64,000 bases of DNA. It comes from Caprimulgus europaeus (taxonomy: Eukaryota > Chordata > Aves > Caprimulgiformes > Caprimulgidae). The translations under genes and the position numbers were made by a program. This document shows, piece by piece, positions 3,001 through 55,999 of this stretch. The notes beneath the pieces were generated by a model. It was given only the letters and a program-made list of their open reading frames with translations. It was not told where the DNA came from and ran no database searches. Position 1 is the stretch's first letter, and every line of letters starts with the position of its first letter. The DNA lies in the NCBI GenBank assembly GCA_907165065.1, contig OU015532.1:36374339-36438338 (forward strand). Direction: 5' to 3'.

Positions 3001-3763
3001 TCTGCATGAGTCTGGGGAAAACGTGATATTTGCCACCATTTATAGGACATGCTATTCATACATCTTTGGTATGTGAACTATTCTTTACCATAAACTTCTG
3101 CATGATGGAGACAAGTAAGGTCAGTAAGTTCAATGTGAAACAAAATCCCCTGTTTTTCTACATCAGTGCCAACTATTGCACATCACCTACTTTTTATTAC
3201 CAATCATGAACTCCAGAGACTTCCAAACATAGAAGCCACAGAGTCCATGTGGTTTGTGAGGTCTCTATATGCACGTCTAATTAAAAACATTCAATTTCTA
3301 GAGTTGCGTTTGGATGCATTTAAGACTGTATAGCAGCTTAGTGAAATACTGAGCACAAAGCACATAAGGCTTCCAATATTTAAACTCATCCATATGATGG
3401 ACAACAAAGAAGAAATTGTAGAATATGATGACTGATGGCCATTAATGTAAAGAACAACATCCTGGTGGTGGTAATTCTGCTTGGTTGACTTAATTCTTAT
3501 CTTTCAGGCTTTCAGGCTAATGAAGGGCACCTTGTTTCTAATGTTTATGTTAATCACATGAAGAGTTTTCTTTGGAGAAATAAAGGACAAGGGGGGTTTG
3601 CTGTTGTTTTGGGGCTTGATGGGTTTTACCTCTGAATTAGTGAGAGGGATGTTTGTGTTTTGGAACAAATCATGACACCATTAACATGCTGTGCTTTGTG
3701 TTACCCTTTTTGGGAATACATTTCTTCTGATTTCAGAGAATATTTTTCTTCTCCTCATTTCAG
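1..3763 (+). other. GPHN: GPHN intron, upstream part
   Basis: This is AT-rich non-coding sequence leading to the splice acceptor of the first visible gephyrin exon. I see no recognisable exon, RNA gene or interspersed repeat. The preceding gephyrin exon (start of the G domain, around the SDSCF motif) is not present, so the intron begins outside the window. The open frames here are short, overlap on both strands and match nothing I recognise. The stretch ends in a polypyrimidine-rich tract and a CAG acceptor at 3761-3763. Confidence 0.7.
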
Positions 3764-3821
3764 GTTGGGTGGGACTATATCTGCATACAAGATAGTGCCA
3801 GACGAAATAGAAGAAATCAAG
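3764..3821 (+). CDS. GPHN: Gephyrin internal exon (G domain, about residues 48-67)
   Basis: Gephyrin is the postsynaptic scaffold of inhibitory glycine and GABA-A receptor synapses, and also a cytosolic enzyme of molybdenum-cofactor synthesis. This 58-base exon encodes LGGTISAYKIVPDEIEEIK, which I recognise as vertebrate gephyrin G-domain sequence (MogA/MoaB-like molybdopterin adenylyltransferase). The acceptor is a pyrimidine-rich tract ending TTTCAG at 3763. The first exonic base is the third base of a leucine codon begun in the previous exon. The donor is AAG|GTACAG at 3821/3822 and leaves phase 0. The next exon begins in phase 0 with the residues that follow in gephyrin, so the two join in frame. 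Residue numbers are from memory of the mammalian protein. The frame is open for some codons on both sides, but only this stretch matches the protein. Confidence 0.93.
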
Positions 3822-11899: not shown

Positions 11900-13616
11900 A
11901 GTTCTCCTGCAAAGAGAGAAGTATCTGTAGGATGACTTTGCCTTAGTCTTCACTAGCAAGGACTCGTGCCACACTGCCCAAGTCCTAGAAAGCCAAGAAA
12001 GAGTCCAGGAGAATGAAAAGCCGCCCACTGTAGGAGAAGATGAGGTTCAGGAGCACCTAAGGAACCTGAAGGTGCACAAGTCCATGGGACCTGAAGGGAT
12101 GCATCCATGGGTCCTGAGGGAACTGGCAGATGAAGTCGCAAAATCACTATCCATCATATTTGAGAAGTCCTGGCAGTCTGTTGAAGTTTCTCCACACTGG
12201 ATAAAGGGGAACATAACCCCCATTTTTAAAAAGGGAAACAAGGAAGACCCAGGGAGCTGCAGGCTGGTCAGTCTCACCTCAGTGCCAGGCAAGATCATGG
12301 AGCAGATACTCCTAGAAACTATGCCAAGGCACATGGAGAATGAGAAGGTGATTGGTGACAACCAACGTGGCTTCACCAAGGGCCATTCATGCCTGCCCAA
12401 TCTGGTGACCTTTTGTGGTGGGATTACAACATTTGTGGACAAGGCTAAAGCAACTGATGTCATCTACCTGGACTTGTGCAAGGCCTTTGACACCGTCCTG
12501 CATGGCATCCTTGTCTCTAAATTGGAAACATGTGGGTTTGATGGATGGATACTTGGTGGATAGGGAACTGGCTGGATGGCCGCACTCAAAGAGTTGTGGT
12601 CAACAGCTCAAAGTTTGAGTGGAGACCAGTGACGAGTGGTGTTCCTCAGGGGTCGGTATTGGGACCGGTGCTGATCAGCATCTTTATTGGTGACATGGAC
12701 AGTGGGGTCGAGTGCACCCTCAGCAAGTTTGCTGACAACACCAAGCTGAGTGGTGCGATTGACACACTGGAGGGACAGGACACCATCCAGAGGGACCTTG
12801 ACAGGCCTGAGAGGTGGGCCTGTGCAAACCATGAAGTTCAACAAGGCCAAATGCAAGGTCCTGCACCTGGGTTGGGGCAACTCCAAGCACAAATACAGGG
12901 TGGGAAATGAGTGGCTTGAGAGCAGCTCTGAAGAGAAGGACTTGGGGGTGCTGGTGGATGAGAAGCTCAACATGAGCCGGCAATGTGCGCTTGCAGCCCA
13001 GAGGCCAATAACCGTGTCCTGGGCTGCATCAAGAGCAGCATGGCCAGCAGGTCGAGGGAGGGGATTCTCCCCCTCTACTCCGCTCTTGTAAGGCCCCACC
13101 CGGAGTCCTGTGTCCAGTTCTGGAGCTCCCAACACAAGAGAGACATGGAACAGTTAGAACGAGTCCAGAGGAGGCCACGAGGATGATCTGAGGGCTGGAG
13201 CACCTCTGCTGTGAGGACAGGCTGAGAGAGTTGGGGCTGTTCAGCCTGGAGAAGAGAAGGCTCTGGGGAGATCTTACAGCGGCCTCCCAGTACCTGAAGG
13301 GGCTACAAGAAAGCTGGGGAAGGACTTTTCGTAAGGGCAGTTAATGACAGAACAAGGGGAAATGGCTTTAAGCTGAAAGAGGGGAGGTTTAGATGAGATA
13401 TTAGGGAGAAATTCTTCACTGTGAGGGTGGTCAGACACTGGCACAGGTTGCCCAGAGAAGCTGTGGATGCCCCCTCCCTGGAAGTGTTCAAGGCCAGGCT
13501 GGATGAGGCTTTGAGCAACCTGGTCTAGTGGAAGGTGTCCCTGCTGATGGCAGGGGGGTTGGAACTGGATGATCTTTAAGGTCCCTTCTAACTCAAACCA
13601 TTCTGTGATTCTATGA
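11900..13616 (+). mobile_element. CR1 LINE, 5'-truncated, family A
   Basis: This is a non-LTR retrotransposon of the CR1 family in the same orientation as GPHN. It starts inside ORF2 just before the reverse transcriptase. Translation shows the CR1 series [44 protein letters not shown], then [19 protein letters not shown] and a C-terminal RLPREAVDAP-like region. The 3' end has the family hallmark TTCTGTGATTCTATGA at 13601-13616, with no poly(A). The copy is dead: a stop and frame change occur near 12560, others follow, and the catalytic FADD box reads FADN at 12728-12739. The 5' boundary is approximate. CR1 in the 36.4-37.1 kb interval is the same subfamily in the opposite orientation. Confidence 0.93.
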
Positions 13617-19195: not shown

Positions 19196-22100
19196 CTTCT
19201 GTGCTTGTCATAGTTTGCTGAAAATCACCCAGCATTCAAAATTTCATCTGAGGTGTTTATAAAATTGCAAAAAACCACAGAAACGTTACTTGAACACATT
19301 AGTGTCTTAATGAAAATCCTCTTGAGATGAGATTGTTAAAAGGATGTAGAAAATGCTTGCAGGAAGAGGTCTATTCCACATTAAAAAAATACTATATCGC
19401 AACAGTTTCAAGTAACAAAGCCCAACAGGTATTTTGACAGACTGAAAGGAGTTCTTCCTCTGAAGTCTTCTCCTGTAACACAAGCACACAGGAGAAAAAA
19501 GCTTTCCAAAGAGCTTTTTCCATTTTTTACTGAGATAAAAAGCCTTATAGTATTAATTAACATTGATAACCACCATATTTTATCTGGCCTTTAGATTGTG
19601 TGAGCCATAGTTTATGGAACTATTTCTCTTCATGGCTTTTACATAAGGGAGCTAAGAAGTGATGGCACAGGGTGAGAAGACAGAGACGAGTACAGGGTGC
19701 AGGTGTTGCCTGAATGAAGTGGGTCCATCTTGGATGTAGGCATCCGATTCCCAAGAAGGTGGGATCGATATGGACAGATTATCTCAGAGAGCTGTGGTTG
19801 TAACAAAAGCCAGTTATTTCTGCCGTGGTGTGTGGAGACAACACTGATGATGTATTTGATTGGACAACAGTGGCAGTACATTATATGTAATGCAATTTGC
19901 TGTGGTTAAAGTCAGAGTATTTGATCTTCTGGAATATCTTTGTGGTCCTTATGTATTTTCTAGCATGCACCTGTCTAGGCAACAAAAATATTTCTTTTCA
20001 AGTTAAACACTAATATAAGATTAAGTTTTCTCTTTTTCATTATCCATGTGCTTTTGGTATGTTCTTTTTCCAGATATTCTCATGCCAAAATAGCTAGCAT
20101 TTTGGTTTTGCTTACTGTAACACTGTTTCTGTACCTTACAATTATAGTAGGATTTCTGAAATTACATGACTTGTCCTTAGAGAAATGTGTAAGGGAGAGA
20201 ATGCCACTGAGTCATCAGAGTTTGGTACGGTGCAGTGGTTGCAAAGCTTTACTTTTTAAAATATTCTCTTATAAAAAAATAAACAAGGTTTTCTAGGATT
20301 GTTCTGTCAGAAACGTTTGCGTTCGGTTTCAGCTGCCTCATCGTTCTGACAGGATTAGGTGGAATGTTAAGACTACAAAGGTAGCACATATATTGGCCTT
20401 CACCATTCCTGCATAGACTGACATTTCTAGTTTTTCTTACAATTTATCATCTGCTTTGTTACTGTTGTTGTGCTCTATCGAAATAGCCTTGTATTTTAAA
20501 ATTACAAATATTGTAACAGTTTCAGCATGTTGCTTCCATAGTATGAGGACATGAACCTCTGTATTAACAAATAGACTTATCCCTCTGGAAGCTGCTCAGT
20601 CCTGTCCCTGTTTTAAAGGGTTCTTCTGCATTCTTGCCAGTGAAGTGGTCTTGGTAGTTGAACATAATCTAAAATAAGTGAGAATTACCTGACATTTCTA
20701 ATTCTTGAAAATGAAGCTATGCATCTGAGAATGCCTTATGAAGATAAGAGCTTAACTTCAAGATGTTTTAAAATGTTTGTCCTTCTCTGATAAAATAGAA
20801 AACAACTATTCTGTGTGTATTTGGAGCAAGGAATGTGTTCTATATTTTAATAAAAAGTTCTAAGGAACAATGCTATATAAAAGAGGCAGTGTGTAAAAAT
20901 AAAGCTGAGTGTCACTTGGGGCAGTGAAGCTAACACTTCAGTTTTACAGGGTACCTTGAGGCTGTAAAAGACAACAGACAATTATCTTCAGGCTGTTTGG
21001 AAGGGAAGATGCTTACATTTAAAATCAGGGAACTGGAAAGAACTGCTTTACATACAAAGGATTCAGCTGTCTCTGAATATTGTGCAGAACTGTGAATGCT
21101 TCTTTAGGTGAGAAAACCAAAGGGATGATTGTGTTTCAAAAATGAAAGAAATAGATATTTGTAAAGTATTATTCTCTCAGTGTAATTAAACCTTTCACAT
21201 GTGTGATATCTTCACTGAGTTGGCTTCTGAGAGACCCAGCAAAAGAAATAAGCAATAGACGTGCTCAGATAAAGGGAAATGATGAGTTTCTGTGATTAAG
21301 CCTCTCTGCAGACTTTAGAAAGCACTTAGGATACACGTTCTAACTGTTCAGCCCATAGTCTATATACAGGCATGAAGCTTTAATCATAGTGGCACAGTTC
21401 CCTATATTTACCATTTTGCTTTAAGTAAAACACTGAGAGGATACACCTCATGCATTTGTGTACCCAAGCACTTTTACAATGTATTTTTATATTTAATTAT
21501 TTTTTATGAAGTAACATATAGATTTTAATATAAACAGTGTGTGTGTGTGTGTGTTCAGAATATTTTTTTTATTTCAGTATTTTTTTGCATAACTTTAGTA
21601 CCTTAAAGTCTTTAAAAATAATCCTATATTTGGGAAAATAGTATTTTAGCAGAAATATAGTCTTGACAACAGCAAAAACTTGTCTAATTATGCTACACCT
21701 GCTACATCTCTACCTATGAAAACAATACTGGACATGTTCAAGCACTTAGATTGCCTTCTGGGGATGGCTAAATAATAGGGAAAGAAACCCATAAGAAATA
21801 TTCTTTTAAGAATCCTTATAATTATATATTTTGAGTATGTTTGAAACACAGAACGAACATATCAACTGTCTTCAACTTTATCCCTTTTTGTGGTCTCAAT
21901 TAAGAATCTGTTCTATCATCAAGAGGCACAACCTAATTCTTCAAAATTACCAACCTGGGCACAAGTTTTTCTCTGAACGCATGGTTAATGTATTCCACTC
22001 CAGGCTCTTCAGCTTGTAGGTTTCGAAATCAGCAATAAGATGGAATGCATCAGGCTCACTGATAAATAGTATCCAAATACCAAGTTTATTTTACACACAA

Positions 22101-23587
22101 GGTGCATAATAGCTTACCAAGGCCAGTAAAAAATAAAAATAACAAAATCAATTTAAAATTGAAACTGCAGTGTAAACAAACTTTCTGCTGTCCCTTCTGG
22201 GAAAGGTTAATTTAAAATAGTTCTGAAGATCATTCCTGTTTCTTTTATACAGAACTCCCCATGAAAACCTGATTTACCTCTCTCCTCCATCTTAGATTAT
22301 CTGCAAGGAACTGAAGGTACTGGACAAAGTAGAATTTGCAAAAGAATTAAACTTAATTAAGTTTAAAGAAATTCAAGAACATTAATTTCTTGTCAGACCT
22401 CAGACACTGAAATCTATCCAAAGAACAGAGATTACTGATGAACATTTTTCTACAAGTCAGTTAGAAATTTAGAATTTCCCTACAAAATCATTATTATAAT
22501 AAAAGGAGCCTGAAGGAGTGAAGTCTGTTTATTCTGTTAGCCCGCAGGCCTTTTCTCAGTACTGTAAATGAGGATGGCCAGATGTTAACTTGCCAGATGT
22601 TATGACCTTCAATTGAATACATTTAAATGAAGTGGTAGTTTGCTTTTCTGTGCCTCAGTTTTGTCATAATTATTATCAGGGTTGTTTTTTTTTAAAGGTT
22701 CAAAGGTAAGATACATGAAACTCAAATCTCTCAAAATCCAAAGAAGATAGGAAAGGAACTGTCTGACTGAAAAATGGTTTTTTCTGTGCAGTTTTTTTTG
22801 TTTTGTTTTTTTTTTCCTTTGTAGAGATCTATAAATGGCTCATTCCAATGAAATTTATTTTCTGTAGCCAATGCACTTATGATGTTATCTTGGAGATATT
22901 GTGACAGACAAAAAAATGCTTCGAGTTTCCTAGTAAAAACATCTCTGTGTTTGGAGTTAGACAGAAGTGAAAGCTGAAACAGCAGCTGGAGACTTAATGG
23001 ACTTCTAAATGATGTGTGACATCTAAGAAATAGCTACAGTAGCTTGGAAATTGGCTTCATTTTTTAACATTGTTTGGTATGGCTGCTTACAGCTCCAAAC
23101 CCAAAAGTTCTAAGTGGGCAAAGTGTCAAATGCTGTGCTTAGATTCATGGGTACAAATGTAAAAGCTCTTGGAATATTGCTGCTATAGTTCTTGAATTTC
23201 CTGGTAGACCTGATTGTTAAACACAAATCTATAACTCTTAGCAGAAGAAAAAAAAAATCTTTTATCTATTTTTAATGTCTTCAAATATCACAGCTATTAC
23301 CAGGCCTGGAGAGAGGGCTCTTACATGGCAGAGAAGACTTGCTTAGTAATTGCAAATTAAAACAAGGGGTTTTCCCGTAGATTGAGAAATGATGAGTGTT
23401 GAACTGAAAAGGTAATTCTAGGTGTAGGTTTATTCTGTGCTGGGGCCAGGGAGATGAGAGAGGGCTGATGCTGGGCTCTTTCTTGATCTCAATAAGAAAG
23501 GCCTGACAACAAATGGCTTAATAAAATATCTGCCTTAATACAGCAGAATAAGAGGAGAAATATAGATAGCAAATGAATCTTACTCCT
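19196..23587 (+). other. GPHN: GPHN intron with a (GT)9 microsatellite
   Basis: This is AT-rich intron. The only structured element I see is the GT repeat at 21537-21554. T-rich tracts occur near 22684-22694 and 22790-22817. No exon signature or named repeat is recognised. Confidence 0.55.
21537..21554. repeat. (GT)9 microsatellite
   Basis: Nine uninterrupted GT dinucleotides lie between TAAACA and TCAGAA. It is short and possibly polymorphic. Confidence 0.95.
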
Positions 23588-24705
23588 TGTGGTGAACTGA
23601 CCTGTCTGAATGCCAAGTGCCCACCAAAGCCATTCTGTCACTCCCCTCCTCAGCTGGACAAGGGAGAGAAAACATTACGAAAGGCTCATGGGTCGAGATA
23701 AGGACAGGGAGAGATCAGCAATTGCTGTCACAGGCAAAACAGACTTGACTTGGGGAAATCAGTTTAATTTATGACAAATCAAATCAGAGTCTGGTGATGA
23801 GAAATAAAACCAAATCTTAAAAAAAACACTTCCTCTCCAATCCTCCCTTCTTCATGGGCTCAACTTCAACCTCCTATTTTCTCTGCCTCCTTCCCCGCAG
23901 CAGTGCAGCAGGATGGGGAGTGGAGGAGCAAATCAGTTCATCACACATTGTTTCTGCCACTCCTTCCTCCACCAGTGGGAAGACTCCTGACGCTCTTCCC
24001 TTGCTCCCCACGGGAGACAGCCCTCCACAAACTTCTCCAACATGAGTCCTTCCCATGCGCTGCAGTTCTTCATGAGCTGCTCCAGCCTGGGTCCATTCCA
24101 TGGGGTGCAGTCCTTCAGGGACAGACTGCTCCAGCATGGGTCCCCCACGGGGTCACAAGTCCTGCCAGCAAACCTGCTCCAGCGTGGGCTCCTCTCTCCA
24201 CGGGCTACAGGTCCTGACAGGAACCTGCTCCAGTGTGGGCTTCCCATGGGGTCACAGCCTCCTTCAGGCATCTACCTGCTCCGGCGTGGAGATCTCCATA
24301 GGCTGCAGGTGGATATCTGCTGTACCATGGATCTCCATGGGCTGCAGGGAGAACAGCCTGCCTCATCAGGATCTTCATCACAGGCTGCAGGTGCTGCAAC
24401 ACCTGGAGCACCTCCTCTCTCTCCCCATCTTCACTGACCTTGATGTCTGCAGAGTTGTTTCTCTCACATACTTGCACTCCTCTCTCTGGGTGCAGCTCTG
24501 CAGCAGTCTTTCTCCTTCTTCAATACATTATCACACAGGTGCTACCATTGTTGCTGATGTGCTCAGCCTTGGTCAGTGGTGGGTCCATCTTGGAGCCAGC
24601 TGGCATTGGCTTTATGGAAAATAGGGGAAACTTCTATCAGCTTCTCACAAAAGCCACCCCTGCAGCCCCACTGCTACCAAAACCTTGCCATGGAAACCTC
24701 ATACA
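23588..24705 (-). mobile_element. Solo LTR, same family, reverse orientation
   Basis: This is a 1118-base element. On the + strand it runs from TGTGGTGAACTGACC to AACCTCATACA, the reverse complement of the TGTATT...CCACA ends of the LTR at 15808. The flanks CTCCT (23583-23587) and CTCAC (24706-24710) are a poor candidate target duplication with three of five bases matching. This copy also looks the most diverged of the three, so it may be the oldest. It contains the family's tandem array at about 24075-24290. No internal retroviral genes are adjacent, so it is a solo LTR. Confidence 0.85.
24075..24290 (-). repeat. Internal tandem repeats of the LTR
   Basis: CTGCTCCAG/CTGCTCCGG cores recur at 24077, 24125, 24174, 24224 and 24276, a period of about 48-52 bases. 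This is the same array, reversed, as in the LTR at 15808-16927. Confidence 0.82.
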
Positions 24706-27700
24706 CTCACTCAGATGCTGGGAAGCATGTGTTTGTGCAGCATCAGATCAGTCCCTAGACAGATTTCTCCACTCATGAGGAATTCTTGCTACAGTTTTAG
24801 ATAAAGGAAAGGCCAGAGTGGTGGTGTAAACATCAGTACTGAGTGGGAGCTGCCTGCAGGCTCCTCCGTTACAATGATGTGGCTGAATCTGTCTTTTGGC
24901 CAAGGGGTTTGTGCAGCATGACACAGAGCTGAGGGCCATGCTGGATGTGGAGCACAGCACAGCCTGCTGTGGGAACTTCAGGGGAATTGTTATGTGGATC
25001 ACTAACTCCTTAATGTAGGATAGTCTCCTGGTCAGGGTCACTGCAATTTTAGAAACATTATAAATAGAACATTGTGTGGTCTTTAATTTCCGGAAGGCAT
25101 TGCCCTGTTCTTGCTCACAGATAAAATTTATTGCATATTGTCCTTCATCCACTAATTCCATCTACTCTCCCTTACTGCAAATACTATCCGAATGACTCCG
25201 CTGTCTTTGTGGGCTCCTCATCACTCTCCAGCACTGAAGTGGTAATTGGCTCTGTAAGGGAAAGGAGTCGTCCAGCAATAACATACACTGCATGCCTTGT
25301 AATCGCCAGAGTAGAGCGTGTGGGAAATGATACAAAGGGGCAATATGGTATTTTTAATTATTGAGATGATGCAATTCTAAATTGCATTGAGCAGATGACT
25401 GTAATGTGTTTTTGACATGTACAGAAAGGTAAGTTTTGCAATTAAAAACCCCCAAATTACTTATATAAAAATTTTCATGTAACAGTATGTTAGAATAGTA
25501 GTATATAAAGCAGGTGATACACAGTCAAAAAGACTAAAACACTTATTATCCCTTATGCAGCTTTTTAAAAAAAAATATAAATAACTCTGGATTCTTGTAA
25601 AGGTTACCATGTGTGTCTTCTTACATCTTTAAAATAGCAAACAAGTACTCCTAGTCCAGAGGGCTCTCCTTGGTTTCACAACTCTAGAGGTGGCTTATGC
25701 TTTAGCCAGGAGGGTGCTGTTCCTGTGAAGCAGCAGACGTTTCCTATGTGCAACTTCCATTATCTCTCAGATTCGAGCACATCTGTGACAATGGGAATGC
25801 ACTTTTTTCACTAGAACCTGCTGTACCTACTGTACTCCTTAAATATTTCCATAATTACTGAGTGTCCCTGCTTATCCTTTTGAAAAACTACTTTTAAAAA
25901 GTGTATATATATTCTTTCTCCATTCTTTTTCAAGGGAAACAAAAGGAGGCAGAGGCATGAAATACTCATTTATGAAAGCATCAGGAATAATTGTGGTGTC
26001 TGTATGTTAATTGTGAAGTTTAAAATAATGGAGTTTTCTAAATAGTCATGAAGGTTTAATATAAACTTCATGTGAAGTAAGTGAAAGCAATTTCAAAATA
26101 AATTTGAAAAATACTTTGTGAAATACTTATCTCAGAAGGATCACTTGTGGTGAGAAATGTCTGCTGAGATTAGCACAAGAGAAATCATTTGTTGTTTAGA
26201 ACTTAAAGCGTAAGAAAACCTTTTAGTAAAAAGGACACTAAGATTTTATTTGCCTTCTGCTAAGTAGTTAGAGTGTATAAATCATTAGTCCTCTTGAAGC
26301 AGACACTGTGAGGGCTTCACTCATCAACGACTGTTTCCTCAGTGCTGCAGCTTTTGGTTCTGACACAGATCTTGATTTTGCAACGCAGCATACGGTACAA
26401 ATATATTCATTGCCAGAGCACTTAATTAAGCCATCATTCTTTCAAGGTTTGATGTTAAGAGTACGTATATAGGTGACATACTTAGTGTTTCTTACTCTGG
26501 AGTTAGTAGCATTTGTTTGAAAACTCTCAGTCACAGAACGGTAGTTGCAAATAGAACCAGCATGTTGGAAATCATGGGGCTGAAAAGCATTTCTGAATAT
26601 ACCAAGACTTTCTCTGCAGCAGTCAAGGTGCTCAATGATTGCTGCAAGCATTTGTAAGGATTTCTCTTCCTTTAGCAGAAAGCATTCTACTCTCATTCTG
26701 ATAGTACTAATTAGTATTTCTTCTATGACTCTTAAATTTTAGCAAGTGAAGTTTGCCATATGTCTATACAAAAACCAGAGATGACAAATTATTATGCTCA
26801 AAATTGTCCTTTTCAGCTCCTTTCATGTATTGCTTTGAACTTTGTTGATGTCCTAGTTAGCCTCTATGGCTTTGTTAACATTTTGAGAGGAGACTGAGCT
26901 AGGTCACTTCTACGAAGCAGTTGCTTTATTAAGCTTCTGTTTGCTCCATTTGCAGCAACTTTATCAAATTAGGCAGACTTCTTACAAAGTTGTCTTCACC
27001 TCAGTCAGCTCTGAAGGATATTTTTTTTTTTAATATATATAATCCTCATCATATAACAAAGTGTTAGGATATATTTCTATATAGCACAAAATACTTTCCA
27101 AGAATTTAGGACCTTGGAAACAATGGAAATTACAATACAAAGAATTCTGCAAAAATACAGTAGGGTGTTCAACATTCTGCATATTATTTTGCCTGAGAGA
27201 TTTCCAATATGCATAAAGGCATGTTTGAACAACCTTAGTATCTTGGCAGATTTTAGTTTCATTTATACCAGCTGCAGAAATAGTTGGAAGATGATTTTGA
27301 AATCTCTTTAGGATTTTGAATGCTTTTGTTATCACCTAACTAGAAGTAATTTTGTTGTTAGTATGTATCAAGGAAAAATGAACATCTTTTAAAAACTTTC
27401 CAAAAGGGAGATGACCGGAAAGTTTCAGCTCTTAGGGAAAGAAGTGATTCTAATATGAGTTGTTCTGCATCAGTTTTCTCCAGAGTATAATAATCAGTCA
27501 AAATCTTTGATTGCAGTGGGATCAGCTAATGCTGAGACACCTCTGCAAGCTGCAATGGCAGCAGAAGATAGCTCATCAAATTCTATGGTAACAGCTTTCA
27601 CCCAGTATCACGCAATAGCTGTAGTCCTTTGGGTCTGTGAGACAGATTCTGCAGGGACTGAATCCTGAAAAGGTCTTCCCTTTGAAGAGAATGGCCTTTT

Positions 27701-28520
27701 AAGTTCAGTAATGGATTGTCTTACAAGTGCCAAAAGGTTCTTTCACTACATTTTAGTCTTTGGATGCTTATACTCCAGAGTTCAGGAATAAACAATAACC
27801 TAATCAGCAAAGCAGCCTATTACTAGTTCATTCTATTATTCTTCTCTTGTGCACTGTCTCTGTAAGAAAATAGCAGGGGCTCATAGGGAAAACATTTTTT
27901 TTTCTGTAATGATCATAGTTATTTAGTTTTCATTGCTTTTAACAGCTGTCAACGTGTTGTTTGCATTAAGAATGAATCTCAATTGATTTTTATCCTTTCC
28001 TTATCCATTTTGAGAATCATTTTCAGTGTCTCCAAAATTACTCCTACTCAACAGCTAATGGAGAAGCGCAGACAGTCTAATCAGTTCCAGGATACTCCAG
28101 TCTTCTTTCCTTTCTTGCTGTACCTTTCTCTTCCTTGTTTGTATATCCCTGTCACAACAACGTATCAGAGCAAGATGTCCATACCTTCCTTATGTTTGGA
28201 AAAATAAAGGGACACTGCTGAATTTCAGATGAAGGGGTTTTCTTCCTGATGCTGTATTATTTTCTGTATATCCTTCTGTCAGTAAGGATGCTAAAGCTGG
28301 CATTGATTATAAGACCTGGAAGATTACTTACCGTCTAAAAATGGTAATCTATAGTTTGTTCCTTATTTGTCTGTGGTAGTAGCTTTTCCCAGGGAAAAAC
28401 AAGTGTCTTTGCATACTCACATGTAGTGACCTAATTTGTACAAGACTCCTTTCTCAATCAACTCACTTGTTCAGGGTTCTCTACAAATACTTTTTGAATT
28501 TTACACTACAATAGAAGGAT
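24706..28520 (+). other. GPHN: GPHN intron, no recognised element
   Basis: This is AT-rich intron. The first 450 bases after the LTR are less AT-rich and carry a 137-codon minus-strand frame (24748-25161) without any recognised motif, which I do not call a gene. Nothing else stands out. Confidence 0.5.
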
Positions 28521-29090
28521 GAATCACAGACTCACAGAATCAATGTTGGAGATTGGAAGGGACCTCGAAAGATCACCTAGTGCAACCCCCCTGCCGGAGC
28601 AGGAACACCTACATGAGATCACACAGGAAGGCGTCCAGGTGGGTCTTGAATGTCTCCAGAGAAGGAGACTCCACAACCTCCCTGGGCAGCCTGTCCCAGT
28701 GCTCTGTTACTCTCACTGTAAAGAAGTTTCTTCTCAAGTTTAAGCAGAACCTCCTGTGTTCCAGCTTACACCCACTGCTCCTTGTCCTATCATTGGCTGT
28801 CACTGAGAAGAGCCTGGCTCCATCCTCCTGACACTCACCCTTCATATGTTTATAAACATTAATGAGGTCACCCCTCAGTCTCCTCTTTTCCAAGCTAAAG
28901 AGGCCCAGCTCCCTCAGCCGTTCCTCGTAAGGGAGATGCTTCACTCCCTTCATCATCTTGGTGGCTCTGTGCTGGACTCTCTCAAGCAGTTCCCTGTCCT
29001 TCCTGAACTGTGGGGCCCAGAACTGGACACAATATTCCAGATATGGCCTCACCAGGGCAGAGTAGAGGGGGAGGAGAACCTCTCTCGACC
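28521..29090 (-). mobile_element. CR1 LINE C, 3' end of ORF2 plus tail
   Basis: This is a minus-strand CR1 copy of about 570 bases. The 3' tail is at the left (GAATCACAGACTCACAGAAT, 28521-28540). The minus-strand frame 28609-29052 (147 codons) is uninterrupted. It encodes the C-terminal CR1 segment [48 protein letters not shown] and [19 protein letters not shown], and ends at the usual ORF2 stop. The open frame suggests a fairly young insertion. The 5' truncation lies just after a CTCTCGACC-like segment. It is nearly the same as the CR1 at 44918-45380. Confidence 0.93.
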
Positions 29091-30530
29091 ACTAACCCCA
29101 TCTAATTTATATTTGGGAAAGAGATTTTATTTTTGGCTTGGTAGGCTTCACCAGGGCAAAAGGAACACTTCCCTGAAACAATGCGAACAGTGCCAGGATG
29201 ATCATAGATCACAATAAGATGATGCCTTTAGTTGCTATGCCACATGGCCTGTACATGCACTGGTAGGCTGGAAACATCTTACATTTAATTTATGCATTAT
29301 AATTAGGTGTGAGAGAATGAATAGAGCTGATATATAGTAATCCTAAGCTGGTAGGGGGGATCCACTACAAATATGTAGAGATTTGAGGATAGGATGGCGT
29401 CTTTGTTTCGAAAGAGAGGCATCTTCTAGTAAATGTTGCTATGCAGAATTGGAGTGCTGTTCTCTGTCCGTGCACTGGTGATCAGAACAATGATTTTTGG
29501 GTGAATAGCACCATCATAGTGCACTGCATGAGCAAGCAGTGGTGCTGGATCCATCCATTATGCAATGACTCCATCTATGAAATTGTTGTGCTTGCTATAA
29601 AATAGTGGTTACAACTCGTTATCTTCGAGATCTTCAGAATTTGCTGCCACATCTTCTTAACAGATGAATATCTAAATAGGCAATTGTATTGACAGTATTA
29701 TTGACCAAAGATTCATCTGTGATTCGTAACATCAAGAAATGCAAAGATTTATTCTCCAGCAGGGAAGAGAATCTGATTTGGCAGGGAGATGTCTTTTTAA
29801 TTCCATGCATTTCAGATCTGGGCTTATCTACCAATACCTTTTTTCTGTTGTGATTAAATAAAAAAACAGTGTCTGAATCACCACAGTCACTCTGTTCTGG
29901 CTTGAACAGTATTGGTACCTGGAATTCAGGAGCTTTCAAGCATCTATTCTAGTCATTTTGCCTTTTTCTTCCCCCACACTGAGCGTTCAAACCAATAGAC
30001 ACATGCATCCTTCAGGCCTCAGTTGTCATACGGTAAAGTAACATAACTGACTATTTAAACATACAGAACATTTTGGTCCAGGGTAGGAAATGGTCCATAA
30101 CCTTTACATGTGCTACAGAATGGACATGGTTTTACTTCAGGAGGAATCCATCTTTGGTGAGGGTTTTGTTTCTCACTATTCTAGAATATTAGAGTTATTG
30201 GAAACTCATAAGCCTGGTATATATCCAGCAGCACTTCATCCACCAGTCTGGAAGCATGCAAATTCTCTTCATCCTACAGTGAGTACCAGACTTCCATTTC
30301 AAATAGAAGAGTTTGCTCAAATTTGGACTATTAATATGATTCTTCTTACTTATTTGATATAACAATGTTCTTTATTACATACAGATGACAGTGAGCCCTG
30401 ATATAAGTGGCTTTGACTCTATTTACAGTCCTTTGTAAGACAGAAGTGAAATTTTAGACCAAATTTCTTCCAAAAGTTTCGATTTTAATTTAAACCAGTT
30501 TATTCACCTGTTCTTCCAGTGGTCATTTGC
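29091..30530 (+). other. GPHN: GPHN intron, no recognised element
   Basis: This is AT-rich intron between two CR1 copies. No exon, RNA gene or named repeat is recognised. Confidence 0.55.
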
Positions 30531-30604
30531 CTCAATCTCTAACAGCCAGACCAGTTACCCTCTTGGCCTCAGTCTTTAATAGCCAGACCAGTTATCCTCA
30601 GAGT
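30531..30604 (+). repeat. 37-base direct duplication at the CR1 D 5' edge
   Basis: Unit 1 (30531-30567) and unit 2 (30568-30604) share CTCA.TCT.TAA.AGCCAGA and CCAGTTA.CCTC in order, differing at a minority of positions. The second unit continues into CR1 sequence. It may have arisen at the insertion junction or be native to the subfamily 5' region. Confidence 0.7.
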
Positions 30605-32230
30605 ATTCAGCCCCTGAGCTGGAAGACAGGGATGGAGAACAGAATAAACCCCCCATAATTCAGGAGGAAGCTGTTTATGGCCTGCTACACCACCTCAACA
30701 CTCACAAGTCTATGGGGCCAGACAGGACCCACCCAAGAGTACGGAGGAAGCTGGTGGAGGAACTTGCCAAGCCGCTCTCCATCATTTATCAACAGTCCTG
30801 GCTAACAGGGGAGGTCCCAGAAGACTGGAGGTTGCCAATGAGACGCCCATTTACAAGAAGGGCCAGAAGGAGGGTCCTGGGAACTACAGACCTGGCAGCA
30901 TGACCTCAGTACTGGAGACCATGGAGCGGTTCATCTTGAGTGCACTCACACGGCATATGCAGGACAACCAGGGAATCAGGCCCAGCCACCATGGGTTCAT
31001 GAAAGGCAGGTCCTGCTTGACCAACCTGATCTCCTTCTATGATCAGGTGACCCAACTAGTGGATAAGGGTAAGGCGACTGGTGGTGTCTACCTGGACTTC
31101 AGCAAGGCCTTTGACACTGTCTCCCACAGCGTTCTCCTAGAGAAGCTGGTGGCTCAAGGCTTAGACAGGTGAACTCTTCGCTGGGTAAAAAACTGGCTGC
31201 ATGGCCGAGCCCAGAGAGTTGTGGTGAATGGAGCTAAATCCATTTGGTGGCCAGTCACAAGTGGTGTTCCCCAGGGCTCAGTGTTGGGGCCAGCTCTGTT
31301 TAATATCTTTATCAATTATATGGATGAGGGGATTGAGTGCACCCTCAGTGAGTTTGCAGATGACACCAAGCTGGGTGGGAGTGTTGATCTGCCTGAGGGT
31401 AGGGAGGTTCTGCAGAGGGATCTGGACAGGCTGGATCGATGGGCTGAGGCCAATTGTATGAGGTGTAACAAAGGCCAAGTGCTGGGTCCTGCACTTGGGT
31501 CACAACAACCCCCTGCAACGCTACAGGCTTGGGGAGGAGTGGCTGGAAATCTGCCTGGCAGAGAAGGACCTGGGGGTGTTGGTCGACAGCAGCTGAACAT
31601 GAGCCAGCAGTGTGCCCAGGTGGCCAAGAAGGCCAACAGCACCCTGGCCTGTATCAGCAATAGTGTGGCCAGCAGAAGTATGGAAGTGATTGTGCCCCTG
31701 TGCTGGGCACTGGTGAGGCCGCAAAAACTGTGTTCAGTTTTGGGCCCCTCACTACAAGAAGGACATTGAGATGTTGGAGCGTGTCCAGAGAAGGGCAACA
31801 AAGCTGGGGAGCAGGGAGCACAAGTCCTGTGAAGAGCAGCTGAGGGAACTGGGGTTGTTTAGTCTGGAGCAGAGGAGGCTGAGGGGAGACCTTATCACTC
31901 TCTACAGCTCCCTGAAAGGAGGGTGTAGTGAGGTGGGCATTGGTCTCTTCTCCCAAGTAACAAGTGATAAGACAAGAGGGAACGGCCTTAAGCTGCACCA
32001 AGGGAGGTTTAGGTTAGGTATCGGGAAAAATTTCTTCACCATAATAGTTGTCAATTATTGGAACAGGCTGCCCAGGGAAGTGATGGAGTCACCATCCCTG
32101 GAGGCATTTAAAGGACGTGTAGATGTGGTACTTGGGGACATGCCTTAGTGGTGAACTTGGCAATGCCAGGTTTATGGTTGGACTAGCTGATTGTAATGTT
32201 TTTTTCCAACCAAACTATTTTATGGTTGTA
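30531..32230 (+). mobile_element. CR1 LINE D, 5'-truncated, long copy
   Basis: This is a + strand CR1 of about 1.7 kb, and the best-preserved reverse transcriptase in the window. It reads ELEDRDGEQNKPPIIQEEAV near the start, then SIIYQQSWLTGEVPEDWR, HMQDNQGIRPSHHGFMKGRS, VYLDFSKAFDTVSHSVLLEK and [18 protein letters not shown]. The catalytic FADD is intact at 31353-31364. It ends with the C-terminal [20 protein letters not shown]. The frame shifts near 30840, a TGA follows LDR near 31170, and the region around 31490-31580 has lost part of the consensus frame, so it is inactive. The tail has decayed to TTTTATGGTTGTATG near 32218-32232. The 5' edge holds a 37-base duplication. Confidence 0.92.
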
Positions 32231-33224
32231 TGTTGCTCCAGAAATAAAACATTTACTGATCTTTAAGCGTATGTTTTGTAGAGAAGTGCCTGCCAGGAGT
32301 GACAAAATAATCCTGAGCTGGACAGAGAGAATAATAGAGTTTCTGTCCAGGCAGAATTTTGTGAACTAGACTTCCCCAAGAAAATTTTTGTGAGGATACA
32401 AGTGATTTGTGCTGATTCCTGTAGGGGTATTCTTTAGAGGACCTGAGTAAGTCTGTTCTTTGCAATACTGCATGTGCTTTTGTTGAAATATACTCATTGT
32501 TTTGGCATCACATTCAGCTGCCTGGCTTAAGAAAGCCATACAGCAATTTTGTTTGGACTACACTTGCAAAGTACTGCTTCTCCTTTTATGGTGTATTGCT
32601 TGTAAGTGAGTTACCAGAGTTAGCATACATTTAGAAAAATATTCAGTAAAGACAAACTTGTTATATTTTGGGTAGTTTCACCTTGTTCTGACAGTAGGTG
32701 TGTTCATGCACTGCTAGGTGAGTTATCTTTTGTCGTATCCATAGACATTGTATTTTAGCTCTTCCGTGGCTCTTCTTTAATCTGTGGCAATCTCAGAGCC
32801 CTTCCAGTCAAAACATTAATCCATCTCTAGGGTAGTCAGTTCTTGGTACTCTTCAGGGTAATGATAGTCAGTTGTGTGAAGGTGTCGTCTAGACATGGAC
32901 ACTCTGTAAGAAAACAGTATTTTCTGTACTGTGTGTTTGTTGCTGATCTTATCTCTTTTAGGTTGTTATATGCAGTTCCTTTGATTCCTTTCTGTACTTT
33001 GGTGAGGGTACCAGGTTGCTCTCCCTGGTTGAGTACACTCATGTTCTCACACCTCACAGCTTCCTAACAGAGCTGATCAGGATGCACTGAACTGTTCATG
33101 AATAGTCTTGGGAAACCACTGCATTATAGTGGTACCTTCTCCCGTTTTGAGCTCTTAAACTCTTACTCCTTCTGCTTATGTCTGTGAAAGTGGCACATCT
33201 GATGACAGTTTTCTCAACCAACTG
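32231..33224 (+). other. GPHN: GPHN intron, no recognised element
   Basis: This is intronic sequence ahead of the DIRS-like fossil. Earlier parts of that fossil could extend into 33060-33224, but I cannot support them. Confidence 0.45.
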
Positions 33225-34140
33225 CTGAAGTGTACAGGTCCTTATGGCTGCCATTTTCTATACTACCTTTGTAAGGGCAGAATATCTGTTCTTCAGCCAT
33301 CCAGGATTCCTTCTTGAAGTGGTGCCAAAGTTCCAGAGCAGACAGGCAATTAGTACTCCACTACTCGTTTCCAGATCTTACGCTTCTTTGATTGAATATT
33401 ATGCTTCACATTCTTGATTTCATAAGGACCTTATCATTTCTCTTCCCAGGTCCAAATCTTCTACTTTGTTTCTTTGCTTGTGGCACTGTGGGAATATCCA
33501 GAAATTCATCTGACTTCACACAATGAATTGCTTTCTGGCTCTTTGTGGATTCAAGGAACTTTCACCCCCATGGTCAAAGCAAATTCTATTAGATCTCTGG
33601 GCTATCTTAGTATCTGTGTTGTGTGGTATTTGGACATTTGCCATAAGGCTACCTGGAGTTCTGTCTTTGCTTTCACTTGGCATGATGTTAGTCTAATAGT
33701 ATCCAGGGCTATTTCAGCCTTCAGTGGAGTGATGCCACAGTTGTTTGTGAGGGTCCTCAGGCCTTCTCCTGGGTGGTAAAAGGCAAAGGTTACTGTTCAG
33801 AGTGAGTCATTGCGGGAATGTACATGCAGACTCAAAGAAGAAAGGTTACTGGTCAGTAACTGGTGTTCTTTGAGAGGTAAAGTCTGCATGTACATTAGTC
33901 TCCTACCTGCCTTTCCCCTCTTTCTGAATCTCTTTCAGGTTTGATTGTGCATTTAAGAGGAACTGAAGTGGTGGCGGATGCACTCTGCCCTGTATGTCAT
34001 GCCTCAAGCAGAAGCGGGGAAGAGCTAGAGCGTCCCTCCCGGGACACTCCAGGGCAGGCCACCAGCCCACCCACTCTTAGACTATATGTATGGACTAAAT
34101 ATCTCAAAGTACAGCAGCTGGTCGTTGGTAGGTAAATTTT
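33225..34140 (+). mobile_element. Fossil 3' part of a DIRS-like tyrosine-recombinase retrotransposon
   Basis: The stretch about 33225-33780 recalls the C-terminal part of the tyrosine recombinase of DIRS elements found in turtles and crocodilians. Recognisable landmarks are an arginine in SIRS (near 33591, in the position of the HxxR arginine), DICHKATWSS (33633-33662, family form DICRAATWSS) and a terminal PSPGW at 33765-33779. It is followed by the family's 3' layout: AAAGAAGAAAGGTTACT, a palindrome (33818-33895), a spacer with a GGAACTGA...GGTGG motif, and an inverted copy of the palindrome arm (34075-34135). The element is heavily broken and 5'-incomplete, with many breaks, and is probably very old. 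Recognition is from memory of such elements; an unrelated repeat with similar hairpins is the alternative. Confidence 0.65.
33818..33895. repeat. Imperfect palindrome in the DIRS-like 3' region
   Basis: The outer arms ATGTACATGCAGACT (33818-33832) and AGTCTGCATGTACAT (33881-33895) are exact reverse complements. Further in, CTCAAAGAA pairs with TTCTTTGAG, and the centre GTTACT-GGTC-AGTAAC is a perfect small stem. The right side has a short extra segment (AGGTAA) that bulges. The sequence could fold into a hairpin of about 78 bases. Confidence 0.9.
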
Positions 34141-36417
34141 CTTTACTGTATTTTCACAGGTAAAGCAGTAGATTTTATTTTAAAAACTATTTGCATTCAT
34201 TGACTCTGTGGATGAGATGCATGAACAATACACACGTGGGGGAATTTGTACCACAAACTGCATTACACTGAGTATCTATCTCTAACAGTTTCATCTCTTG
34301 TCTTTCTTCCCCCCTCTCCTAACCTTTTTTAGATATTTTAATATTTTCACTCTGCTCAATTTGCCATTTCCATTGAGAGCTACACCAACAATTGAAATTA
34401 CAGAAGTTGGAATATTATTTTAAAAGCCAGAAGAAACAATGTCTTGCACAATGTAGCTAAGAGTATGAAGTAACATGTAAAATTGTATTTACTATTAGAA
34501 AATGAAGCTAGAAACTGAACTGAGTTCTGTAAGAATCAATTACATTTTTAGAATTATATTGTGTTTTAAAACTCCGTATTTACAGAAAAGCAAGCATTTG
34601 AGTTTAAACATTTTTTTCACAGCTGGGTTCCTCATGTTTGGGTTTTTTTAATCCCAGAAGCCTTGTAGTAATTTTTTAATCCCCTGCACTTTCTGCCCAC
34701 TAAACAGAACAAGTAGACACAGGGTATAACCTGGCCTAAACTAGAGATGTACTTGTCTCTGCATGCAAATACATAGGTGCCAATTCTGTGAGTGGATGTT
34801 TTCATGGATAGTTTCTGGGAAGTGCAGGTTGTGTGAGCTGAGGGCTGTTACACAAATACGATTCTTCTGTGCTTCTACTTGGACTTCTCTGAGATACATC
34901 ACCTTTGCCAATAAGACACACGTGCTTTTACCAGTTTCTTAAGAGTTGAAGCAGTTAGTGTTGTTTTGGCAGCTGAAAGAAATTTGCAGTTGTTTTTCTG
35001 TGGCTTTGCCATTTCTATGTTTTCAGTAAGATTAAGATGTAGCTTATCTGGGCTTAGTTACAGCCAGCAAAGTTCAGTGAAAATTCTCATCTGTGGTGCC
35101 TGAGATACACATGCTGTAGATGTGGATGCACATAGATTAAATATTGTGAAGAACTCTAGTTTTAGAAAGTTACTCTGTAATATCAAGCTGCCTTCTCACA
35201 TTCTGAGACAAAAACCCAAAGTAACAATCTTTTAAACAACCTCAGATGCAACATTAAAGTATGCAAAGGGAAAGAAAATTGGGGAAAAGCCATCTTGTTC
35301 TGCACAATTAATATGAATTTTATGTCTCCAAAACCAAGCATTTATATATTGTGATAACACATCTTTGAAGTGCTACTTTAATTAAAAAAAGAAGTAAGAT
35401 AGAGAAAGTTTCTGATTATCTATTATTAGTGAGTAGTATTGGATTAATTCAGTTGGTTTTATGCTTTTCTTCCTTTTCTTTTCATTCCAGTTGGTATTTT
35501 AGGTTGTGTTGTAGGAATAATTGGAGGAATATATATCAGATGTCAAGATTCTCACTGGGAAAAGTAATACTGGCAAGGAGGCAGTATGTTTTCCTTTTAT
35601 TTAATTATTAATTGATTTCAAATTATTAATAAAAACATTGAGTTTTTACAACTACTGTAATATTTATTTCAGCAAGTAAACATTATACTTTAGTAAGAAG
35701 TCTTTTATGCATGACAGAAATGAGACACATTGAACTTTGGTGCATTTGCTAGTACATTTTTAGTATGTAAAGATAAGCGTGTGTGCATATATACCCACAT
35801 ACATGTGGGTATCTGCCAAATTCAGAGTGGACAGGAAAATAGTTTCAAGGAAAAGCTGCATTTGGGAAATACCCAATTCTGACTCTTCTGACAACTCTTA
35901 AGTTCCATCCTTTCCTTCAGGCATCTGAGTAAAACTGTTATGCTGGAATGACTGAGCCTTTCCAGTGAGTAGCCGTGATTTCAAGACCTCAGCATGCACT
36001 CCAGGAGGATACCCATGGTACCAACAGTAGAGAGGAACAGATGTTCATACAGAAGGAAACAAATCTTGTGCCTTGCTGCATGCTCATGGTTTGCATCTGC
36101 TCTAGACCCTCTTGTAGATTTTAATTGTTTGTTAAATCGTACAATGAAATCACGATTTTTCTTGTTCATACTAAGACTGATATGCCAAGGTAGTTAGCTT
36201 GAATTAAGAATCCCACCTTTGTCTTTTTGAGAGGAAATCAGCACAAGACATTTAAAACTGCACTTTTAGTTTTTGGAGTCACTCTTGTACACGGCCTATA
36301 CCGTCTTCACCTTTCTCCATGTTAATAGTTAGAAATTTTTTTGCCAGTCTCAACCCTTAAAAAGCAGATTGCTTCAGTGTTGGCCAGTCTCAGTCCCAGT
36401 GGTCTGACCAGCAAACA
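34141..36417 (+). other. GPHN: GPHN intron, no recognised element
   Basis: This is AT-rich intron between the DIRS-like fossil and the next CR1. No exon, RNA gene or named repeat is recognised. Confidence 0.55.
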
Positions 36418-37088
36418 CAGAATCATAGAATCATAGAATGGTTTGGGTCGGAAGGGACCTTAAAGATCATCCAGTTCCAACCCCCCTGCCATGAGCAGGG
36501 ACACCTTCCACTAGACCAGGTTGCTCAAAGCCTCATCCAACCTGGCCTTCAACACTTCCAGGGAGGGGGCATCCACAGCTTCTCTGGGCAACCTGTGCCA
36601 GTGTCTGACCACCCTCACAGTGAAGAATTTCTTCCTAATATCTCATCTAAACCTCCCCTCTTTCAGCTTAAAGCCATTTCCCCTTGTTCTATCACTACCT
36701 GCCTTTGTAACAAGTCCCTCCGCAGCTTTCCTGTAGCCCCTTCAGGTACTGGGAGGCCGCTATAAGATCTCCCTGGAGCCTTCTCTTCTCCAGGCTGAAC
36801 AGCCCCAGCTCTCTCAGCCTGTCCTCACAGCAGAGGTGCTCCAGCCCCCGGATCATCCTCGTGGCCTCCTCTGGACTCGTTCTAACAGGTCCATGTCTCT
36901 CTTGTGTTGGGGGCTCCAGAACTGGACGCAGGACTCCAGGTGGGGCCTCACGAGAGCGGAGTAGAGGGGGAGAATCCCCTCCCTCGACCTGCTGGCCACG
37001 CTGCTCTTGATGCAGCCCAGGACACGGTTATTGGCCTCTGGGCTGCAAGCGCACATTGCCGGCTCATGTTGAGCTTCTCGTCCACCAG
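36418..37088 (-). mobile_element. CR1 LINE E, 3' part, family A
   Basis: This is a minus-strand CR1 with its tail at the left: CAGAATCATAGAATCATAG (36418-36436), two copies of the 8-base AATCATAG unit typical of CR1 3' ends. Moving to the right, its complement encodes the ORF2 C-terminus, including [20 protein letters not shown] and [11 protein letters not shown]. It stops abruptly within [11 protein letters not shown]-equivalent sequence at about 37088, which is the 5' truncation point. It closely matches the 3' part of CR1 A at 12.95-13.6 kb, in inverted orientation. Confidence 0.93.

Positions 37089-45380: not shown

Positions 45381-55999
<10,619 letters not shown>

Follow-up and report, generated by a model that had tools for sequence, protein, structure and literature searches.

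In DIRS retrotransposons, as the available passages of PMC3266345 describe them, the recombinase is followed by internal complementary regions (ICRs) and then by the right terminus. The left and right ICRs join at a 3-bp circular junction and each is complementary to its own terminus, and both terminal repeats (ITRs) share with both ICRs a short conserved stretch of at least 10 nucleotides, next to a part that diverges. In the Anolis element AcDIRS1, the same passages give terminus parts of 26, 140 and 26 nt (192 in sum) and ICRs of 40–58 nt. The distribution of DIRS among tetrapods is patchy, which is viewed in the accessible part of PMC9004415 as the outcome of an ancient loss of activity, and the human DIRS fossils treated there predate the amniote/amphibian split. 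For birds, the available sections of published papers report DIRS as undetected, including in chicken (PMC5006616). The excerpted repeat tables of an owl (PMC5629816) and a martin (PMC13365828) list 111 and 137 entries, respectively, in a pooled class Gypsy/DIRS1, from which DIRS are not separable. Among the matches listed in our literature searches, which drew mostly on journals readable without subscription, no title dealt with fossil DIRS elements of birds.

Since DIRS have been reported as undetected in this group, a DIRS copy in the nightjar Caprimulgus europaeus is of interest. The window analyzed here, a whole stretch of 64 kb within one contig (C9) of a genome of 1,177,730,439 bases in 121 contigs, very probably contains a dead, ancient DIRS retrotransposon copy in sense orientation in an intron of GPHN. 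The kind of element is already known; its interest lies in its occurrence in a group reported to be without DIRS, and in a frame through its palindrome that has diverged less from a related protein (P0001, below) than the recombinase part has. An earlier note on this DNA had delimited the element to 33225–34140 and placed it in a GPHN intron. The placement is correct, since gephyrin exon matches on the plus strand lie on either side of this region (3729–3821, E = 2e-6; 45749–45850, E = 8e-15). A search of the genome with the 916-base region 33225–34140 found only the region itself, and no Rfam family matched within the window at gathering score.

Recombinase and probable upstream pol remnants

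The decayed recombinase C-terminus read in the earlier note lies in a stop-to-stop frame of 117 codons (33426–33779), and its three motifs stand where they had been placed: SIRS at 33585–33596, DICHKATWSS at 33633–33662, and PSPGW directly ahead of the closing stop codon at 33779. We compared the window with 120 recombinase references, listed among 156 proteins found from 334 candidates and including turtles, Anolis, coelacanth and amphibians; the bait was a DIRS-type sequence composed after the window had been read. The best tblastn match against the window was with Chelonia mydas P0075 (E = 5.1e-8), in two colinear pieces, followed by Latimeria P0061 (E = 2.1e-5) and Chelydra P0041 (E = 3.0e-5), while the lowest value in the reversed window was E = 0.006. 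Matches inside 33200–34200 at E ≤ 10 were found for 109 of the 120 references. At E < 0.05, 40 matches were centred in 33000–33999 on the plus strand versus 11 scattered elsewhere in the window, the best of which had E = 0.003 and 0.009. Thus, the translated search against DIRS recombinases, by which the earlier note had put its own family call at risk, came out in favor of that call, with matches at 33061–33752.

Frameshift-tolerant alignment over 32236–34200 gave a similar picture. Among the 120 DIRS-type references, 108 scored above their own controls, with top scores of 132 for Chelonia and 126 and 121 for two Chelydra proteins, as compared with a highest control of 54 over all proteins; the Anolis sagrei recombinase reached 64 versus 132 for Chelonia. 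The best alignment ended within 33300–33760 for 116 of the 120 references. A profile built from the 120 references matched the window best at 33618–33722 (E = 0.0029, with an overlapping piece at 0.0059) and at 33142–33375 (E = 0.077), against a next window match of E = 0.46 and a value of 1.5 in the reversed window. Pfam found no relevant family in five raw frames, but the turtle recombinases P0075 and P0041 likewise escape it. These results suggest that the remnant is of the DIRS type, as judged by a comparison that covered DIRS-type proteins only.

The conserved recombinase positions were taken from 30 of the references and compared with the tblastn alignments of the window. The window copy deviates at the first Arg motif, the Lys, the His of HxxR and the Tyr, and the Chelonia reference likewise deviates at HxxR. 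Given its stops and frame change, the recombinase copy is dead and, with the departures at these positions, the element is unable to move.

The span of 33225–34140 is probably too short for the element, since weak colinear pol remnants lie upstream (Table 1). For these we used 120 RT/RNase H references, listed among 2179 proteins found at E ≤ 1e-10 with a second bait. Their profile matched the window best at 29862–30017 (E = 0.021; reversed window, 3.6). Frameshift alignment was run on 26001–30540 with the CR1-like stretches masked and with three controls. The best forward match ended in 29900–30049 for 51 of the 120 references, whereas the largest control cluster comprised 23 of 120, and scores of at least 50 were reached by 20 of 120 in the forward direction versus 2, 5 and 4 in the controls. 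Farther upstream, the ends of three turtle proteins (P0142, P0124 and P0228) agree on 28212–28246 in neighboring alignment columns, with scores of 63, 59 and 52 against control maxima over 120 proteins of 51, 55 and 52. When six proteins were each set against nine controls over 26001–30540, five beat all nine and P0183 did not. Since the single scores are weak, the argument rests on the shared columns and on the order of RT, pol end and recombinase. With tblastn, RT/RNase H references formed no cluster in the window, except for the recombinase tail of P0228, and in 32236–33060 RT/RNase H did not rise above controls. The upstream pol remnants probably come from the same insertion as the recombinase, though we say so less firmly than for the parts downstream, and the element likely extends over about 28.1–34.1 kb, beyond 33225–34140.

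Two further elements lie among these remnants (Table 1), both of which we take to be CR1-like. The longer one shows RVT_1 matches in two frames with E = 1.3e-11 and 4.2e-10. Elsewhere in the window there is a GC-rich similar pair in opposite orientation (13183–13302, minus strand; 36737–36901, plus strand), both members of which are matched by the same part of P0166.

Table 1. Positions of the features in the window, with the basis of each assignment.
Feature	Position	Strand	Basis and remarks
Possible RT remnant, weak	28123–28246	+	Three turtle proteins (P0142, P0124, P0228)
Second element, 3′ end, presumably CR1-like	28510–29130	−	By eye from the sequence
Remnant of the C-terminal end of pol (past RNase H), probably from the same element	29862–30029	+	RT/RNase H profile, clustering of references
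LINE between pol remnant and recombinase, presumably CR1-like	30540–32235	+	RVT_1 in two frames; borders by eye
DIRS-type tyrosine recombinase (YR) remnant	33061–33752	+	tblastn, frameshift alignment, profile; interrupted by stops and one or more frame changes
Left half of near-palindrome, read as left ICR (lICR)	33817–33852	+	Naming after PMC3266345 (available passages)
Right half of near-palindrome, read as right ICR (rICR)	33853–33900	+	Naming after PMC3266345 (available passages)
Putative right terminus (ITR and right extension)	33901–34125	+	Upstream border and end deduced; end at about 34125 estimated from rICR alignment

Palindrome and putative right terminus

The recombinase and the palindrome that follows it are parts of the element. 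Behind the recombinase, the two ICRs meet in a palindrome whose outer arms (33817–33832 and 33881–33896) are 16 nt long and 100% complementary, and whose inner arms (33831–33851 and 33854–33874) are 21 nt long and 81% complementary. The palindrome score over 33760–33900 was 56 versus a highest value of 42 in 1000 dinucleotide shuffles, and 32 versus 26 under a second scoring, so that none of the 1000 shuffles reached it under either. The palindrome that had been reported behind the recombinase is therefore genuine. A second inverted arm, reported together with it, is probably also real, but it is weak: the reverse complement of 33860–33900 aligns weakly with 34080–34117, and 10 or 9 of 1000 tail shuffles reach as good an alignment. 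In direct orientation, alignment of 33860–33900 to the tail gave nothing (equalled by 344 and 125 of 1000 shuffles). A genome search with 33780–33935 found only this sequence and its own reverse.

With inner arms that are imperfect, outer arms that are perfect and a putative right end weakly complementary to the rICR, the copy fits the description in the available passages of PMC3266345, and the order that the earlier note had given for turtle and crocodilian DIRS, namely recombinase, palindrome and inverted right terminus, agrees with the layout described there. No left ITR stood above controls in 20001–33200 (best 14; reversed, 14; elsewhere in the window, 18), and it may have been lost or have decayed in the fossil. 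Since the left ITR is the single defining feature that failed to appear, we class the element as a DIRS copy that is truncated or decayed.

Searching for homologs of the 117-codon frame yielded one protein, P0001, among six candidates (78% identity over 72 residues), which is taken to be the same locus because its frame continues through the same palindrome. Two of 54 residues differ from P0001 in the frame through the palindrome (33780–33944), whereas 16 of 72 differ in the recombinase part (P = 0.004, Fisher’s exact test); this is one comparison at the protein level, with a boundary chosen after looking. The lower divergence of the palindrome frame is a hint that, together with outer arms complementary at 16 of 16 positions, could be explained if the host had reused the palindromic end, for instance in a regulatory or structural role, and selection had kept it. 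We regard such reuse as improbable, the more so as the contrast comes from that one comparison and palindromes can be homogenized by hairpin-templated repair. Moreover, in DIRS themselves both ICRs are described as sharing a short conserved stretch (PMC3266345, available passages).

Even less credible is an origin from another tyrosine-recombinase element, be it an Ngaro- or PAT-like retrotransposon or a Crypton, a reading left some room by the fact that the recombinase was set against DIRS-type proteins only. Ngaro and PAT elements have split direct repeats, and Cryptons are not known to have a pol gene. What follows the recombinase is inverted and palindromic, which is the DIRS layout as given in the available passages of PMC3266345, and P0228, whose recombinase tail matches the window, is a turtle protein with Pfam RT and RNase H domains. 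That an ordinary intron has by accident acquired a recombinase-like frame next to an unrelated hairpin or DNA transposon can be practically dismissed, for although individual matches are weak and decay is far advanced, the reversed-window, reverse-strand and shuffle controls lie far below what was observed, and the best alignments of nearly all references end in one and the same interval.

Recombinase fossils elsewhere in the genome

The earlier note had considered the copy a rare survivor. As a lone survivor it does not hold up: recombinase fossils were found at 31 further places in the same genome, and every one of these scores above the window copy. A genome search with P0075 found 43 places at E ≤ 10, nine of them at E < 0.001, with the window copy at only 0.71; with P0061, 25 places were found at E ≤ 0.01, 15 of them at E < 0.001, and the window copy was absent from them. 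Places from the P0075 search for which there was no locus were counted only where the P0061 search supplied one. The 120-protein profile matched all 20 loci of a first set (L002–L021; best E from 4.7e-23 to 1.7e-5, as compared with 0.0026 for the window locus, L001) and all 24 loci of a second set (L024–L047; 5.4e-23 to 1.8e-6), 11 of which are new places, and no reversed locus of either set matched at E ≤ 1. As it was recombinase searches that supplied the loci, and as the sets are small, these E-values confirm rather than discover. With the window copy included, DIRS recombinase fossils thus lie at 32 or more places in this genome.

Three of the DIRS recombinase fossils lie within about 320 kb on one contig (G000:C37:930134, 1011569 and 1252185). 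There are also two weak recombinase matches in open frames, G000:C20:11917886-11918140 (E = 0.28, 199 codons) and G000:C3:90254909-90255355 (E = 2.24, 330 codons), which may be due to chance or to a host exon.

We surveyed 19 stretches downstream of 18 places for palindromes, L018 and L031 being one place. At 17 of the 18 places, no convincing ICR-like palindrome was seen behind the recombinase fossil; at some of them the ICR may be out of reach, because the recombinase match ends well before the C-terminus. The only comparable palindrome is that of L029, which was reached by 1 of 60 and then by 20 of 500 shuffles. Its core aligns with the window core at a score reached by 5 of 2000 null palindromes, a figure that is optimistic because L029 was picked after looking at all places. 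The high score of the L033 palindrome is due solely to an AT run, and this candidate was set aside. Direct matching of the window ICR to the downstream stretches gave weak results, the best being equalled in 8 of 300 (L020) and 10 of 300 (L007) cases. A TTAATTA motif is common to L002, L003, L004 and L007, 10–62 bases behind the recombinase match, and may mark the 3′ end of a different DIRS family.

Origin of the copy and comparison with known DIRS systems

If the published DIRS model applies to this copy, the element would have been reverse transcribed, its two ends would have been joined on the palindromic ICRs into a circle, and the circle would have been inserted by the element’s own tyrosine recombinase. 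DIRS insertion leaves no target-site duplication and takes place at a short sequence identical to the circular junction. Both CR1-like elements would have landed in the DIRS copy afterwards, and the copy presumably has no function now. Given the recombinase fossils at no fewer than 32 places, it seems that DIRS were present in the line of this genome and then died. That number in one genome agrees with the view of an ancient loss of activity in the accessible part of PMC9004415, and such fossils, if dated by orthology, would show at what time DIRS ceased to be active on the bird line. A more ambitious proposal, that the bird line holds a layer of dead DIRS missed by annotation (the same 32 or more places here) and that the GPHN palindrome has been kept beyond neutral decay, possibly for a new use in the intron, strikes us as improbable when its parts are taken together.

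Like the dead DIRS copy in GPHN, the LAP2alpha domains of TMPO and ZNF451 in mammals are a DIRS remnant within a host gene, as set out in the available passages of PMC4495291. These domains come from ORF1 and are coding, whereas the GPHN copy is intronic and presumably without use. The DIRS fossils of human, alligator and turtle in the accessible part of PMC9004415 are likewise decayed protein remnants, some of them intronic, and are regarded as ancient; they differ in species and in the method of detection, and the passages available include no bird. Turtle DIRS (Chelonia mydas P0075, Chelydra serpentina P0041/P0042 and Macrochelys P0228) have a recombinase colinear with about 33061–33740 of the window in two frames, and in Macrochelys P0228 the recombinase comes after RT and RNase H, which would match the order of the probable pol remnants and the recombinase in the window. 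In contrast to the turtle elements, the window copy is broken and deviates at catalytic positions, a comparison made by protein rather than by DNA ends. Compared in layout and size only, AcDIRS1 of Anolis (PMC3266345, available passages) has a recombinase, two ICRs, and a right ITR with a right extension, as the window copy probably also does, and the sizes are near each other, with about 225 nt behind the palindrome (to the estimated end at 34125) and palindrome halves of 36–48 nt in the window copy.
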